From Zhongshania aquimaris (lineage in GTDB: Bacteria > Pseudomonadota > Gammaproteobacteria > Pseudomonadales > Spongiibacteraceae), in contig NZ_JAHWDQ010000001.1 in assembly GCF_019312595.1 (NCBI RefSeq), positions 1,288,788 through 1,352,787 on the forward strand: a DNA stretch of 64,000 bases, in the 5' to 3' direction. Shown here one piece after another: positions 11,339 to 38,816 of the stretch. Under the pieces are notes generated by a model. That model searched no databases and was not told the origin of the DNA. It saw nothing but the letters and a program-made list of their open reading frames with translations. Position numbers and translations under genes: made by a program. The number at the start of each line of letters is the position of its first letter. The first letter of the stretch is position 1.

Positions 11339-11345
11339 GTTGGGC
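11339..11345 (+). other. First cassette junction (attI-like or degenerate attC core)
   Basis: GTTGGGC fits the integron core GTTRRRY, with crossover expected between G11339 and T11340. It is the exact reverse complement of the R'' box GCCCAAC at 11704-11710 at the end of the same cassette. The preceding bases AACAAAACT resemble the A-rich left side of known attI sites. No hairpin typical of attC lies to the left. It could therefore be an attI remnant or the edge of a decayed attC. Confidence 0.6.
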
Positions 11346-11396
11346 TTCACCGAAAACAAGCGTATGGTGGGGACTCTCAACCGCAGGAGATGTGCC

Positions 11397-11699
11397 ATGG
11401 TCACAGTAGCGTTGTTCGTCCGCTTGGAAGCGAAGCCCGGGAAAGAGAAAGAAGTAGAGCAGTTTCTGCTTGGCGGGCTTCCGCTAGTCCAAGCGGAGCC
11501 TGCCACTACCGCATGGTTCGGTATTCGTTTGGGGCCATCCACGTTCGGCATTTTTGACGCCTTTCCCGATGAGGCGGGCCGTCAGGCGCATCTTGCTGGC
11601 AAGGTCGCTGCTGCCCTCATGGCGCAGGCAAGCGACCTTTTTTCCTCACCGCCGTCCATCGAGAAGGTTGACGTTCTAGCGGCCAAGCTGCCGGGTTAG
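11397..11699 (+). CDS. Antibiotic-biosynthesis-monooxygenase-like (quinol monooxygenase) cassette protein
   Basis: The 100-residue product has the small ferredoxin-like fold pattern of ABM/YgiN proteins: an opening strand VTVALFVRLEAKPGKEKEVEQFLL and a later FGIFDAFPDEAGRQAHLAGKVA helix region. The frame runs from 11340, but the ATG at 11397 is preceded by AGGAGA eight bases away and removes a basic, unlikely N-terminus. It is the single gene of cassette 1 (11340-11774), reading rightward in the normal cassette direction. Members oxidise quinols or bind small aromatic compounds; the substrate here is unknown. Confidence 0.8.
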   Translation: MVTVALFVRLEAKPGKEKEVEQFLLGGLPLVQAEPATTAWFGIRLGPSTFGIFDAFPDEAGRQAHLAGKVAAALMAQASDLFSSPPSIEKVDVLAAKLPG

Positions 11700-11703
11700 T
11701 AAA

Positions 11704-11780
11704 GCCCAACAAGACACTCCAGCCGCCGTTTTGCCTTTGCTTCGCTAAGGCAAAACGGCGGCTGAGTTTGGGCGTTAAAT
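11704..11780 (+). repeat. attC recombination site 1
   Basis: This 77-base site starts with R'' GCCCAAC (11704-11710) and ends with R' GTTAAAT (11774-11780). Between them is a perfect 17-bp stem (arms beginning AGCCGCCGTTTTG at 11721 and ending CAAAACGGCGGCT at 11763), the imperfect cruciform expected of a folded single-stranded attC. R'' pairs with the GTTGGGC at the left edge of cassette 1. The ATG of the next gene overlaps R'. Confidence 0.92.
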
Positions 11781-12195
11781 GCTCATGAGTACTAAAGAAG
11801 AAATATTCAAGTATCACGAGTTGGCAAAGGATGCGGGTAATAGACTCCGCTCGTACATTTTGTCGGTTTCGTCAGGGGCTACAGGCGTGTTCTTTCTAGC
11901 ACTTACGACAACTTCTGAAAATACGGTCTCTGATACTCAGAAGTGGCTGCTTGGTATGGCGCTCGTTTCGTTTGTTGCAACTGTAGGCTTGTGCTTATAT
12001 GAGCTTCGAATAGATGCACAACGGTTTTTCTTTTTGGCTAAGGAATTAGAGAAGCCTGCTGAAAATAGAAACTGGGATAAGAACGAGTACTTCAAATCAA
12101 AACGATTTTGGCTAATCCATGCATCGTACGTAACCCTTGGGGCTGGCATATTGGCCACAAGCATTTATTTGGTTCTGGCAATTGTTGGCATTTAA
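11779..12195 (+). CDS. Cassette-encoded membrane protein of unknown function
   Basis: The 138-residue protein has an amphipathic N-terminal helix followed by hydrophobic segments at about residues 28-44, 57-76 and 113-136, with a charged cytoplasmic-looking stretch (ELRIDAQRFFFLAKELEKPAENR) between the last two. I do not recognise a family; the layout loosely recalls SLATT-type membrane proteins, but this is weak. The first ATG (11779) lies inside the attC R' box, with a second at 11785, and no clear Shine-Dalgarno precedes either. It is the sole gene of cassette 2 (11775-12276). Confidence 0.7.
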   Translation: MLMSTKEEIFKYHELAKDAGNRLRSYILSVSSGATGVFFLALTTTSENTVSDTQKWLLGMALVSFVATVGLCLYELRIDAQRFFFLAKELEKPAENRNWDKNEYFKSKRFWLIHASYVTLGAGILATSIYLVLAIVGI

Positions 12196-12282
12196 CAAGG
12201 TGTTGTAGTCGCAGCGCGAAAAAGCTCGCGCTGCTGGGACGCCTTCGCTGGCGCTCCGGCGCCCCAAAACACGGCGTTAGGC
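12190..12282 (+). repeat. attC recombination site 2
   Basis: This 93-base site has R'' ATTTAAC (12190-12196), overlapping the stop codon of the membrane-protein gene, and R' GTTAGGC (12276-12282). An internal perfect stem GCAGCGCGA / TCGCGCTGC lies at 12211-12219 and 12226-12234, with further GC-rich pairing toward the right. R'' is the exact reverse complement of GTTAAAT at the left edge of cassette 2. Confidence 0.92.
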
Positions 12283-12345
12283 GGCCGGGTTCGGCCCTAT
12301 TATCACGGGATGTCCTGTATCGGGCGCCCCCATCCAGGGGCAAAA

Positions 12346-12750
12346 TCAGACGATGAGCTGAAAGCAAATCCAGAAAATCATGCCGACCTGGGCAAGGAAG
12401 AACGTAGCACGTGATAGCACAAACGCCGAGGCAGTGCTTATGAGATGTGACAGGCTCTGCCCCACGCGCGCAAGCAGGATGAACATCGCAAGACTATCTA
12501 CCACAGGGCTCTTGCCCATGAGCGCGGCAACCACCACCACGCCTGCGAAAAGCGGAAAGTTTTCCACGCAGTTCAGGTGCGCGCCCTTGGCGCGAACCAT
12601 GAAGGCCGGGTCGCGGTTGACCTCAGCGCGCTCCCAGTCTGAGAACTTGCGGCCTCCGAAAAGCGCCATTGGCACGCGAGGGAATGCGTAAGACAGCGTG
12701 AGAAGTTGTATCCACACCACGTAAAGCACCACTGCAATGAATCCGGTCAT
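12346..12750 (-). CDS. MAPEG-family membrane protein, cassette-borne and reversed
   Basis: The protein (134 residues from the ATG at 12750) has four hydrophobic segments and the MAPEG-like motif RAKGAHLNCVENFPLFAGVVVV. MAPEG proteins include glutathione-linked membrane enzymes, but most bacterial members of this size have no known substrate. The frame extends to an ATG at 12777; 12750 is preferred because AGGAAAG precedes it closely. It is encoded opposite to the normal cassette direction, so it cannot be read from an upstream cassette promoter and presumably carries its own. It is alone in cassette 3 (12277-12991). A second MAPEG gene lies at 31155-31550. Confidence 0.85.
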   Translation of the reverse strand: MTGFIAVVLYVVWIQLLTLSYAFPRVPMALFGGRKFSDWERAEVNRDPAFMVRAKGAHLNCVENFPLFAGVVVVAALMGKSPVVDSLAMFILLARVGQSLSHLISTASAFVLSRATFFLAQVGMIFWICFQLIV

Positions 12751-12916
12751 AATCTTTCCTAGTATTTGAATTTGCATTTATTGTACGTACACAGCCTCCG
12801 AACAGATGCAACGCATCGCACGGCGCTGGACACAGTTGATGACAAGGGTACGGTGGCAGAACAATACGTCCGCGTCGGCAGTTTCGGGAGAGCTCCAGGG
12901 GTCGTGGAGGACTTCC

Positions 12917-12993
12917 GCCTAACAATTCGCTGTACTCGGACATATTTTTCGTTGCCTGCGGCAATCCAAAATATGCCGGTAAGCTCAGGCGTT
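12917..12993 (+). repeat. attC recombination site 3, split at its crossover by a 176-bp element
   Basis: R'' GCCTAAC is at 12917-12923 and matches the GTTAGGC at the left edge of cassette 3. The stem includes CATATTTT near 12942 and AAAATATG near 12968. The site runs to GGCGTT, where the expected R' would continue. Instead the miniature element begins, and the missing half (GTTATGT) resumes at 13170 on its far side. Confidence 0.88.
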
Positions 12994-13169
12994 GAGGCTG
13001 TAGAAAAACTAAAACTGAATTATGGCGAATTTGTTTGATCGTATTTTAAGCTAAAATAGGCGTGTTTTTCGAAATCTGGCCGATTTGACATGCGAATAAC
13101 CTCCAGATTTCGAGTAGGAACACGAATGTATTTTAATTTTTGGAGTGGCTGGAGTTTTTCTACAGCCTC
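12994..13169. mobile_element. 176-bp miniature element, copy A, at a cassette junction
   Basis: The element begins GAGGCTGTAGAAAAACT and ends with its perfect 17-bp inverse AGTTTTTCTACAGCCTC. GTT lies on both sides (12991-12993 and 13170-13172), consistent with a 3-bp target duplication or with the G/TT crossover point of integron recombination. Inside is a 10-bp hairpin, CGAAATCTGG at 13070-13079 and CCAGATTTCG at 13103-13112. It encodes no protein. Copy B at 13799 has the same length and ends but a diverged middle. Ends of this general type (GGCTGT, A-rich) occur on insertion sequences, so it is probably a non-autonomous transposon (inference); no transposase is in the window. Confidence 0.8.
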
Positions 13170-13183
13170 GTTATGTGCTTAGC

Positions 13184-13438
13184 TCAGTAGTGATACCGTA
13201 GTTGCGCAATAAGAATGGAGTCTTGATGAATTTTATAAACAATTCGATGCTCGTCGTTAATTCGCCGAGACCAATACCCAGAAAGGGCGTGCTTCAAAGG
13301 CTCAGGCTTGCCAATCCCCTCAAATGGTTCTCTCTGAATATCCTTGATAAGTACATTAATACGTTTAAGCATCTGCTTATCAGTCTTTTGCCAGTATAGG
13401 TAATCGTCCCATGCCTTCTCTGCAAAAATTAATTTCAC
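13184..13438 (-). CDS. yoeB: YoeB toxin, ribosome-dependent mRNA endonuclease
   Basis: This 84-residue protein matches the YoeB/Txe family along its whole length. The catalytic residues known from E. coli YoeB are all in place: E46 (GKPEPLKH), R65 (DEHRIVY) and H83 in the terminal RYHY. YoeB cleaves mRNA in the ribosomal A site when its antitoxin is degraded. The start ATG overlaps the end of yefM by four bases, the normal antitoxin-first order on the minus strand. The pair is the content of cassette 4 (13171-13796), again reversed relative to the array. The toxin looks intact. Confidence 0.97.
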   Translation of the reverse strand: MKLIFAEKAWDDYLYWQKTDKQMLKRINVLIKDIQREPFEGIGKPEPLKHALSGYWSRRINDEHRIVYKIHQDSILIAQLRYHY

Positions 13439-13689
13439 TCAATCAATTCCTTTGGCTGACCTTTTCCATCTTCAAGTTCGGCAATAGACTCAATCAAGCG
13501 CCGTGTATTCTTAGGGCTTCGCAGCAAGTAGGCGGTTTCTTCCAAGGCCTGGTAGTCGTCCATCGAAATCATTACCACAGCGCCTTCGCCTTTGCGGGTG
13601 ATAGCCACAGGGGCGTGGTCGTTACATACCTGCTCCATAGTCTTGGCAAGATTGCTTCGGGCGGCGGTATAGCTTATGCTTTCCATCAT
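13435..13689 (-). CDS. yefM: YefM antitoxin
   Basis: This 84-residue protein of the Phd/YefM family neutralises YoeB and represses its own operon. The N-terminal DNA-binding part (ISYTAARSNLAKTMEQVCNDHAPVAITRKG) and the segment EETAYLLRSPKNTRRLIESIAEL, which corresponds to the YoeB-binding region in E. coli, are both clear. Two adjacent ATG codons give an ambiguous first residue; AGGTAAAT precedes them. Upstream are three TGTACA hexamers that form the likely operator. It has its own promoter by necessity, since it is antisense to the cassette direction. Confidence 0.96.
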   Translation of the reverse strand: MMESISYTAARSNLAKTMEQVCNDHAPVAITRKGEGAVVMISMDDYQALEETAYLLRSPKNTRRLIESIAELEDGKGQPKELIE

Positions 13690-13697
13690 GATTTACC

Positions 13698-13721
13698 TGT
13701 ACATGTACAAAAATATGTACA
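13698..13721 (-). promoter_or_regulatory. yefM-yoeB operator, TGTACA hexamers
   Basis: TGTACA occurs at 13698-13703, 13704-13709 and 13716-13721, just upstream of the yefM start. The last two are 12 bases apart centre to centre. In E. coli the YefM-YoeB complex binds palindromes with TGTACA cores at about this spacing (established knowledge), so these are very probably the autorepression sites. Confidence 0.8.
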
Positions 13722-13733
13722 TATGATATCAGC

Positions 13734-13798
13734 ACATAACAAGTGGGTCAATACGACTCCAAAAACCTGCGGTTTTTTCCGCGTATTACCCAAGCGTT
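13734..13798 (+). repeat. attC recombination site 4, split at its crossover by a 176-bp element
   Basis: R'' ACATAAC is at 13734-13740 and is the exact inverse of GTTATGT, which starts cassette 4 at 13170. The stem includes AAAAACC / GGTTTTTT around 13761-13778 and CAATACG / CGTATT. The left half ends AAGCGTT (13792-13798). The rest of R' (ATGT) appears only after the inserted element, at 13978. Confidence 0.9.
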
Positions 13799-13974
13799 GA
13801 GGCTGTAGAATTACTAACGGGAATTTTCAAGGCCCGGTTCTGGTTGATTTTTGATCTGTAAATAGGCCGATTTTTTGAAATAGGAGGAGATTCAGATGCG
13901 TTATTTGCGGGGATTTCACGCAGGAGCGCGTAATTTTCAAAGAAGTGGATTGGCTGGAGTTTTTCTACAGCCTC
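13799..13974. mobile_element. 176-bp miniature element, copy B, at the next cassette junction
   Basis: This unit has the same length as copy A (176 bases) and the same ends, with left GAGGCTGTAGAATTACT (two mismatches to the right end's inverse) and a right end identical to copy A over its last 24 bases. GTT flanks it on both sides (13796-13798 and 13975-13977). The middle is clearly diverged from copy A, although AAATAGGC occurs in both, one base apart in position. No coding frame. Equal length, shared ends and the same insertion point make this a family that repeatedly entered integron junctions rather than a chance repeat. Confidence 0.8.
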
Positions 13975-14003
13975 GTTATGTTTCAGGATAGCTCGGAGTA
14001 AAA

Positions 14004-14603
14004 ATGGATATCGACATCAAACCACCGGAAGGCATGAAAACAGTGATGTGTGACAACAAGCCTGTTGGCTATGTCAAAGATGTCGAAGACCTAGAAGAGG
14101 CCGCCAGGCTTGCTCAAGAACTACTCAAGCCTAAAGGGCTTTGGCGCGACATACCAAAGGCAGAGATGATCTATAGTCAGGCTCAGTCATTTGCTAATGC
14201 ATCAGCACATATATATGAGAAAGATTTAAAGTCGTTACCAAGAAACCCGCAAGGCATCACTCCTTTTGTCGTTAATGCGGCCTTCAGCGCCGAGATGTAT
14301 CTCAAGTCCCTTCAAGAAATTCATGGTGAGGTAACAGAATCTCATGTTTTAACTGCCTTGTTTAAGTCGCTGCCTAACAAAGTAAAAGACAGAATAAACA
14401 AAACCTGTAAAAGCTTTGAGAGCCAGTACGAGGTAGAAAAAGGCGTTCTGTTCAAAGACCACCTTAAAAGCATTAATCATGCTTTCGTGAATTGGCGGTA
14501 CATCTATGAAAAGAGCACTGAGTACGTCAACATTCAACAAACCATCTTTGTTCTACAAGTGCTGCATGAAACTGCAGCCATAGAGCTAGGCATAAAAACA
14601 TAA
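14004..14603 (+). CDS. Cassette-encoded helical protein, possibly HEPN-like
   Basis: This 199-residue soluble protein is mostly alpha-helical by composition. The segment ITPFVVNAAFSAEMYLKSLQEIHG, then SHVLTALFKSLP, and a late HAFVNWRYIYEKS resemble the helical layout of HEPN or DUF-type cassette proteins, but I see no certain RNase motif (R-x4-6-H), so this is only a suggestion. The ATG at 14004 is preceded by GGAGTAAAA. The stop overlaps the R'' box of the following attC. It is the only gene of cassette 5 (13976-14669) and reads in the normal direction. Confidence 0.7.
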   Translation: MDIDIKPPEGMKTVMCDNKPVGYVKDVEDLEEAARLAQELLKPKGLWRDIPKAEMIYSQAQSFANASAHIYEKDLKSLPRNPQGITPFVVNAAFSAEMYLKSLQEIHGEVTESHVLTALFKSLPNKVKDRINKTCKSFESQYEVEKGVLFKDHLKSINHAFVNWRYIYEKSTEYVNIQQTIFVLQVLHETAAIELGIKT

Positions 14604-14675
14604 CAAGGCCAGCCAGAGGGACCAAAAAACCGCCGCTTCGCTCTGGTTCTTCGGCCACTGCTGGTGGCGTTAAAT
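14598..14675 (+). repeat. attC recombination site 5
   Basis: R'' ACATAAC at 14598-14604 overlaps the preceding stop codon and matches GTTATGT at the left of cassette 5 (13975-13981). R' GTTAAAT is at 14669-14675. Imperfect pairing of GGCCAGC and CCAGAG with CTCTGG and GCTGGTGGC gives a typical folded site of 78 bases. Confidence 0.9.
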
Positions 14676-24158: not shown

Positions 24159-24920
24159 TTAAGTTTTAAGCCGATAGCCGGTGCGGAATATCCAATAGAT
24201 CCCAGTCAAACAGAGGCCGAGGAACACCAGTATCATCGCCACACTAAGCCCGACATTAACGTCAGCTACGCCGTAAAAACTCCAGCGAAAGGCGCTGATC
24301 AAATATACCACTGGGTTGGCTAAAGTAATCGACTGCCACAAAGGCGGCAGCATACTGATTGAGTAAAAACTACCGCCGAGAAACGTCAACGGCGTGACAA
24401 TTAACATGGGCACCACCTGCAGTTTTTCAAAACCATCAGCCCAAATGCCGATGATAAAGCCAAACAAGCTAAAGGTGGCCGCTGTTAAAATTAAAAACGT
24501 CACCATCCAAAATGGATGGGCAACGTGATAGTCCACAAACAAGTTTGCGGTGAGCAATATAATACTGCCGACAATGACCGACTTGGTGGTCGCCGCGCCG
24601 ACATAGCCCAATACAATTTCTCGCATCGAAATGGGCGCAGACAAAATTTCATAAATAGTGCCGTTGTATTTGGGGAAATAAATACCAAACGAGGCATTAG
24701 AAATACTTTCTGTCAGCAGGGCCAACATCACCAAACCTGGAATGATAAACGCCGCATAACTCACTCCATCGATCTCAACCATACGCGAGCCGATAGCGGA
24801 ACCAAACACCACAAAATACAGAGAGGTCGATATCACTGGCGATGCAATACTTTGCATAATGGTCCGCCACGTGCGATGCAACTCAAATTTATAGATTGCC
24901 TTTATTGCATGGAAGTTCAT
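24159..24920 (-). CDS. yadH: ABC-2 type exporter permease, YadH-like
   Basis: This 253-residue inner-membrane protein has six hydrophobic segments and the ABC-2 signature region ([36 protein letters not shown]). It forms the transmembrane part of an exporter with the ATPase encoded just upstream, whose stop overlaps this start by four bases. YadGH-type exporters are widespread in gammaproteobacteria, but the substrate has not been established. Confidence 0.9.
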
Positions 24921-38724: not shown

Positions 38725-38816
38725 ATATCGCTCAAAGCTAGACGGTAAACGGGAGAGGCTGGCATGAAACGTCACACAGCTTTTGCGTTTTCCGTCTCCC
38801 GTCCAGCGTCTGCAAT

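Follow-up and report, generated by a model that had tools for sequence, protein, structure and literature searches.

Miniature elements in an integron cassette array of Zhongshania aquimaris very probably belong to an apparently undescribed attC-targeting clade of the IS1182 family

Two short elements in an integron cassette array of Zhongshania aquimaris are, with a probability that we put at about 0.88, MITEs of an attC-targeting clade of the IS1182 family, placed by a transposase at the GTT of the attC R' box, where each becomes a leader of the next cassette. Together with their transposase-bearing relatives, elements of this type apparently form a widespread and undescribed clade. The two copies, A and B, were found in a stretch of 64,000 nucleotides (the window) that had previously been described in a sequence-only reading.

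The array comprises five cassettes, and A and B lie between the third, fourth and fifth of these (Table 1). The sequence-only reading had reported two 176-bp elements with 17-bp inverted ends, two mismatches in the left end of B, identical last 24 bases, GTT on each side and an insertion at integron crossover points. Each of these points held: the ends of A are perfect, the left end of B matches the consensus at 15 of 17 positions, the final 24 bases are the same in both, and both elements sit inside an R' box, 3' of its GTT. Since this GTT has been duplicated, each side of the element retains one. When the elements are removed, the R'' and R' boxes pair as had been described (GTTAGGC with GCCTAAC in cassette 3, and GTTATGT with ACATAAC in cassettes 4 and 5). 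A search with the 17-mer of the end, allowing up to 3 mismatches, gave five matches in the window against 0.11 expected, a number that 0 of 100 shuffles reached; four were the ends of A and B, and one was a stray match at 24691. Compared to shuffles, the bottom-strand fold of the attC reached a z score of -3.5 in cassette 2 and only -1.3 in cassette 5. No Pfam family was found for cassettes 1 and 5, and cassette 2 gave a weak match to DUF2721, below the family cut-off.

Table 1. Positions of the cassettes, attC sites, miniature elements and flanking GTT triplets in the window
Feature	Position	Strand	Remarks
Whole array, five cassettes	11339..14671	+	
Cassette 3	12277..12991	+	MAPEG-family gene 12346-12777, minus strand
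Cassette 4	13171..13796	+	YoeB-like toxin 13184-13438 and Phd/YefM antitoxin 13435-13689, both minus strand
Cassette 5	13976..14669	+	199-aa ORF 14004-14603, no Pfam family
attC of cassette 3	12917..12993	+	R'' GCCTAAC to GTT; bottom strand folds, z -3.1
attC of cassette 4	13734..13798	+	R'' ACATAAC to GTT; bottom strand folds, z -2.6
MITE copy A	12994..13169	+	176 bp, 17-bp inverted ends perfect
MITE copy B	13799..13974	+	176 bp, left end 15/17 to consensus
Left GTT of copy A	12991..12993	+	GTT of R', attC of cassette 3 (crossover G|TT)
Right GTT of copy A	13170..13172	+	Start of cassette 4 R' (GTTATGT)
Left GTT of copy B	13796..13798	+	Within R', attC of cassette 4
Right GTT of copy B	13975..13977	+	Start of cassette 5 R' (GTTATGT)

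A and B have the hallmarks of MITEs in that they are short and gene-less, have inverted ends and a target duplication, and share their ends with autonomous IS: 18-19 terminal bases are identical to those of full-length IS, while the interiors are not shared. A search of the source genome and its relatives for further copies, as suggested by the sequence-only reading, found MITEs in both. A third copy in the source genome (G000:C1:1896313-1896489) is 89% identical to A and is located at the attC of a second copy of cassette 3, and the L033 contig, which also holds an IS of the IS1182 type, carries a 177-bp MITE in another attC. Ten MITEs with both ends were collected from the same bacterial family (A, B, the third copy, L033, L112, L118, L124, L143, L144 and L148), counting those found by the plain 17-mer or beside a transposase, and not counting partial copies; L124, in genome G008, is the counterpart of the third copy. 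Seven of the ten have GTT on both sides, two have GTT and ATT, and one has damaged flanks. The MITEs from outside the family, in Marinimicrobium agarilyticum (L232), Microbulbifer halophilus (L243), Oceanospirillum linum (L305) and Marinobacter xestospongiae (L296), all lie between two GTT.

The right flank reads ATT instead of GTT in three MITEs outside the window (L112, L143 and L167), and the flanks of L148 and L166 are damaged. In all four MITEs with one GTT only (L112, L143, L166 and L167; a small sample, with two from a biased set), it was the GTT on the attC side that was retained, a pattern that would fit preservation of the left joint through use and unconstrained decay of the right one. 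The ends of A differ from those of the IS in the source genome at 2 of 17 positions. Seven MITEs that were compared have at best 16-26 terminal bases in common with IS copies, and most of them also carry an internal segment close to CGTAGGAGCGCG and, ahead of the right end, a segment resembling CTGGAG. The interiors match none of the 96 full-length IS described below, the matches being confined to the ends, and a direct parent was not found among these 96.

Some candidates were rejected as MITEs of this family, namely those with the left end GAAGCTGGCGAA, which are located in the transposase gene, and the items at L130 and L168. The 140-bp element at L130 (L130:2195-2334, G000:C1 about 1839200) has related ends (CAGGCTGTTGAAAAACG) and a CTAG on either side; it apparently represents a second MITE family of the source genome, one that is not at attC. 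A 7.4-Mb genome (G199) contains 98 matches to the 17-mer with at most 2 mismatches, 36 forward and 62 reverse, most of them GAGGCTGTCGCAAAACT (for example at C1:1122984). Near the third MITE (L128), a sequence on the opposite strand is 97% identical to 29 bp of the window (38779-38807).

The sequence-only reading had also pointed to a full-length IS with the same ends and a transposase as something to look for, and autonomous relatives were found. In the source genome, IS ends (GAGGCTGTATAAAAACC..) are present at the edges of C9, C10 and C11 and within C1, all flanked by CGTT or its complement; the opposite end, with GTTA or its complement beside it, occurs in C8 and C10, and the edges of C6 and C8 carry the 3' part of an IS1182-type transposase. 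The IS is therefore present in this genome, in pieces split by the assembly. With the start of the transposase from C1 as the query, matches were obtained in 10 of 21 genomes of the same bacterial family. One relative (L033:4256-6052) encodes P0001, a protein of 518 residues with DUF772 and DDE_Tnp_1_6 domains, which scored 266 bits (E 6.6e-79) against the IS1182 model NF033551, 4 bits under the cut-off of 270 bits; three other attC-inserted relatives scored over the cut-off (L202, 275.5 bits; L204, 274.6 bits; L205, 270.2 bits).

A transposase alignment scan of species genomes gave 318 relatives, of which the best 80 were used. Terminal inverted repeats were present at both ends in 78 of these 80 loci, which were chosen by transposase; the other two (L262 and L303) have one end each, consistent with the rule described below. 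The best 80 include relatives from Marinimicrobium, Gilvimarinus, Microbulbifer, Spongiibacter, Zhongshania, Halioglobus, Marinobacter, Halomonas, Rheinheimera, Arsukibacterium, Oceanospirillum and Candidatus Thiodiazotropha. As further queries, two transposases more remotely related to P0001 (identity about 45% and 38%) were run against 194 genomes of the order; matches with an E value of 1e-40 or below came from 22 and 20 genomes, many of them at the same places. In a tree of 37 rows, from which L206 and nine close relatives were omitted, one branch (100/99) separates 31 attC rows from 6 others, which include long branches and the near-copies L381 and L385. Among the 40 of 1520 plasmid records listed, the only relatives with more than 27% identity were on three marine plasmids (43-49%), and for that reason we see no link to clinical integrons.

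A further IS1182-type IS in G027 (L203, L231) has the ends GAGCCTGTCGGACTTAA and CTAG-like flanks. In 5 of 14 IS (L232, L234, L237, L238 and L256), the transposase stop is followed, just 3', by TTATCCACA or ATATCCACA, a motif that we take to resemble a DnaA box. It could couple transposition to replication, during which attC is single-stranded. We also considered whether the 3' non-coding region encodes an RNA guide, but this region is not visibly conserved across the 14 IS and nothing speaks for such a guide.

For an analysis of the insertion site, IS insertions were gathered by transposase similarity, ignoring the flanks. This gave 96 unique full-length insertions, no two with the same right flank and all with both ends by construction: 78 from the best 80 loci, and 18 from 58 further loci that came from the two distant-transposase searches and, in two cases, from a further transposase search, the remainder of the 58 being repeats of one place, truncated or at contig ends. 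All 96 have GTT on both sides and C before the left one, so that the element lies between ..CGTT and GTT.., and all 96 are in one orientation. In the 78, orientation was read from the transposase match, and the 5' end of the transposase is next to ..CGTT; in the 18 added, the strand with the longest frame forward was kept, and the flanks were always GTT..GTT and never AAC..AAC. The base after CGTT is A in 92 of 96, and positions -18 to -13 are conserved.

A few other loci deserve mention. A plasmid copy from Pseudoalteromonas piscicida (L378) obeys the site rule, and no IS ends were found at L379. An internally deleted IS on a plasmid of Catenovulum adriaticum (L380) occupies the same site in the opposite orientation, and the orientation is therefore not absolute over the wider clade. 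There is GTT on both sides of L044 (the same place as L320/L364) and a single clear end at L327/L359. At L035/L318/L352, which are one place in G013, there is an intact frame with no left end and a right end that adjoins GTTA; this copy looks truncated on the left.

The sites of insertion were recognised automatically as attC, by either or both of two tests, in 76 of the 87 cases that had at least 120 bp of flank. The first test, a stem score for an anchored R' and an upstream R'', was applied to 85 sites with 182 bp of flank, 63 of which scored over the 95% quantile of shuffles and 49 over the 99% quantile. This score accepts [TCG]AAC; an earlier version that demanded YYAAC (44/85 over the 95% quantile) was replaced, because R'' is often RYATAAC. 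Demanding R''-R' pairs in the minimum-energy fold was too strict (17/87 sites against 11/435 shuffles). In the second test, for 57 of 87 sites, the left flank was found again at unoccupied sites in the collected loci, with an identity of 75% or more across no fewer than 55 bp adjoining the insertion point. Eleven sites passed neither test (L289, L323, L269, L288, L299, L305, L283, L285, L298, L278 and L301); by eye, L289 and L323 are very short and attC-like, and L269, L288, L299 and L305 are not clear attC. A third test concerned the neighbouring cassettes: a downstream cassette with a matching R'' and an attC end was present in 40/71 cases (4.9% when permuted), or in 34/71 with an 8-mer (1.7%), and an upstream cassette with a matching R'' in 37/60 (control, 15.1%). 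The suggestion of a MITE family whose transposase targets the core of attC is thereby supported by matching full-length IS and by where they insert. Neither of the outcomes that the earlier reading had named against it, mostly non-attC sites with unrelated duplications or a lack of other copies, was observed.

How the transposase would find the site is a separate question. In the targeting step, it may read a short double-stranded sequence, of about RGCGTTA, rather than a structure, and we consider this possible, with odds below even. CGTT is invariant and nearly always followed by A, and there was no insertion (0/96) in the R'' box, although R' and R'' both offer GTTA; at unoccupied attC from the best-80 loci, the R' side reads RGCGTTA, with C before GTT in 64/68, and R'' read from the other strand is mostly CTTGTTA, with C in 4/69. 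RGCGTTA is, however, a common sequence, occurring 25 times in the 64-kb window, the one window counted, where shuffles gave an expectation of 19; joints of the array account for 3 of the 25. With a purely short motif, insertions should therefore be frequent outside attC, but no fewer than 76 of 87 were in attC. Occupied and unoccupied R' boxes, moreover, have the same consensus. The main alternative to a reading of the fold is a longer double-stranded motif that reaches into L', where positions -18 to -13 are conserved.

Structure enters the argument through the relatives. Five plasmid copies of IS1182 elements outside the clade were read, representing four distinct sites, with 4-5 bp duplicated. 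L381 (ISPpu20) and L385, whose flanks are identical, were counted as a single site, CCCGCC-TTAAT-GGCGGG accompanied by T runs, and the L382 site is GGAGCC-GGTA-GGCTCC; these two of the four look like the loops of terminator hairpins, with the loop duplicated. L383 (CAAG) and L384 (GGTC) have 4-bp duplications and no obvious hairpin. Because IS1182 relatives use hairpins and attC is the hairpin of the integron, we favor the view that the clade has specialised on the attC hairpin. The 76 of 87 sites at attC and the folding of the attC of cassettes 3 and 4 may reflect a target of the hairpin type, in which the fold would have a role. Our broader proposal, which we offer tentatively, is that this DDE clade reads the folded, single-stranded attC and rebuilds the crossover, and that its members are low-cost parasites of integrons that stack, ride on the downstream cassette and maybe serve as leader DNA.

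The joints beside the elements may remain in use. Cassette 3 has a second copy in the source genome (G000:C1 about 1896490-1897210), also beside a MITE, and in G008 there is a counterpart of this locus that carries the same MITE. The alignable block of the two loci extends from window position 12273 (R') to 13173 (the MITE end plus GTTA). The cassette copies have 2 differences in 721 columns and the adjoining MITEs 19 in 177, with the rate changing at G|TTGAGG. Judging from these sequences, either cassette 3 was copied between arrays with the downstream crossover exactly beside older MITEs, which we prefer by a fair margin and by which G|TTGAGG would have been used, or, as seems the less probable course, two different MITEs inserted independently at the attC of both cassette-3 copies. 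Both are consistent with transposition, and the case suggests that the joint beside a MITE stays usable by the integrase. (Between L128 and L124 in G008, one array has about 680 bp extra just upstream of cassette 3, which has the appearance of a cassette gain or loss between two closely related species.) The earlier suggestion that an element may block or change cassette excision is accordingly doubtful, with G|TT regenerated on the attC side.

Elements are also stacked. At four places in three genomes, two ends lie back to back around a single GTT: L182 and L198, both in G187, L296 in Marinobacter xestospongiae and L041 in Z. marina. At L315 (the same place as L182) and L296, the order is attC, GTT, IS, GTT, MITE, GTT; at L198 the left partner is cut off and the right one has the size of a MITE, and at L041 the left partner is an IS. 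An occupied attC therefore still seems to be a target.

We considered the possibility, which the sequence-only reading had raised as its second alternative, that the integron integrase itself inserts these units, gene-less or with a transposase, as TT-element-G cassettes recombined at G|TT. Cassette integration would indeed produce the G|TT at both junctions and the fixed orientation that are observed, and the left joint seems to be a place of cassette change; fixed orientation alone would fit either a transposase or an integrase. Against this, the inverted ends of the units are those of a DDE IS, the full-length relatives carry a transposase, the attC rows form one side of the supported branch in the tree, and one copy (L380) is reversed. 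Inspection by eye of the 3' ends of 13 MITEs and 14 IS showed no R''/L'' arrangement. With a 112-aa fragment as the query, intI was found in 6 of the 80 loci, a count that loci cut by contig ends may lower, and there the IS was 963-3102 bp from the matched part and not at attI. The integron-integrase model had no match within the window; its best match in the source genome is a fragment (model positions 1-113 of 315) on another contig, the four further matches are all weaker, and the same model also gives matches in 14/14 control genomes. We consider insertion by the integrase very unlikely. That unrelated insertions survived only where harmless, over-representing attC joints, which are intergenic and tolerant of insertions, is scarcely credible given the base-exact position, the single orientation and the constant GTT duplication in 96/96, which are unlike selection for harmlessness.

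Our preferred model, insertion by the transposase, starts from what can be read in the sequences, namely the family, ends, duplication, site, orientation, spread and back-to-back copies; from there we infer the transposase chemistry, the recognition of a hairpin, mobilisation of MITEs in trans and continued use of the joint by the integrase. The transposase would bind the 17-bp ends and join them, in one orientation, across the GTT of the R' box, cutting with a 3-bp stagger and so duplicating this GTT. The target would be chosen by the attC body upstream of the cut, most likely by its hairpin, and A and B would be mobilised in trans by the transposase of a full-length IS. Because GTT is duplicated, the attC would keep its G|TT crossover, now G|TTGAGG, and the element would form the 5' end, or leader, of the cassette that follows and could be carried along as cassettes move. 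Lying at a rebuilt crossover, it would thus neither break a gene nor destroy the site.

If the fold is indeed what is read, the elements may serve as leader DNA of promoterless cassettes; a promoter scan around the MITEs found 3 sites against 2.5 expected. The clade provides about a hundred natural insertions at one type of hairpin, with which one can test whether a DDE transposase is able to read the structure of DNA and by what means orientation is fixed. According to two papers (PMC10132070, PMC11187229), few DDE transposases are strictly specific for site and orientation while acting without a helper protein. For integrons, the clade represents a further, independent class of attC-targeting element, by which the crossover is conserved, and some stretches of cassette arrays that lack genes can be explained by it.

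The sequence-only reading had raised the possibility of an undescribed attC-targeting miniature element, and this is apparently what A and B are: in the open full-text literature, among the matches listed, no title or start of an abstract names an IS1182-type or other DDE IS that targets attC, a scope that lies outside subscription journals and ISfinder, where a prior mention is possible. A survey of Shewanella reportedly found no IS interrupting attC (PMC9229058). With the IS1182 family (IS1272/TnSha1 and ISPpu20), the clade shares the transposase family and the style of the ends ([CG]AGGCTGT..), and it may share the use of hairpin DNA. TnSha1/IS1272 are described as always inserting in hairpins, with no sequence consensus, without duplication, with partial loss of the target and in both orientations (PMC4923244, PMC5678879), whereas the attC clade uses one site (R'), duplicates GTT, has one orientation in 96/96 and occupies a separate branch (100/99). 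The IS1111-attC group of the IS110 family (ISKpn4, ISPst6) also targets attC in one orientation, has a DEDD transposase, is guided by a seekRNA and makes no target duplication (PMC11187229). The attC clade, in contrast, has a DDE transposase and inverted repeats at its extreme termini, and it duplicates 3 bp of the target; the DDE domains of P0001 and the GTT duplication in 96/96 place it outside that group. The MITE-like structures of Gillings et al. 2009 reportedly flank a class 1 integron, by the title a whole integron, unlike the single elements seen here inside an array, at attC. Group IIC-attC introns consist of a ribozyme and a reverse transcriptase, unlike the DDE transposase, or absence of any gene, in the attC clade. 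These introns are likewise mobile elements at attC (PMC8876359). The ISAjo2 group of the IS1202 family consists of DDE-type IS that insert at a pdif/dif site in one orientation with a duplication (PMC10132070). Like this group, the attC clade is made up of DDE IS aimed at a site-specific recombination site, oriented and duplicating their target.
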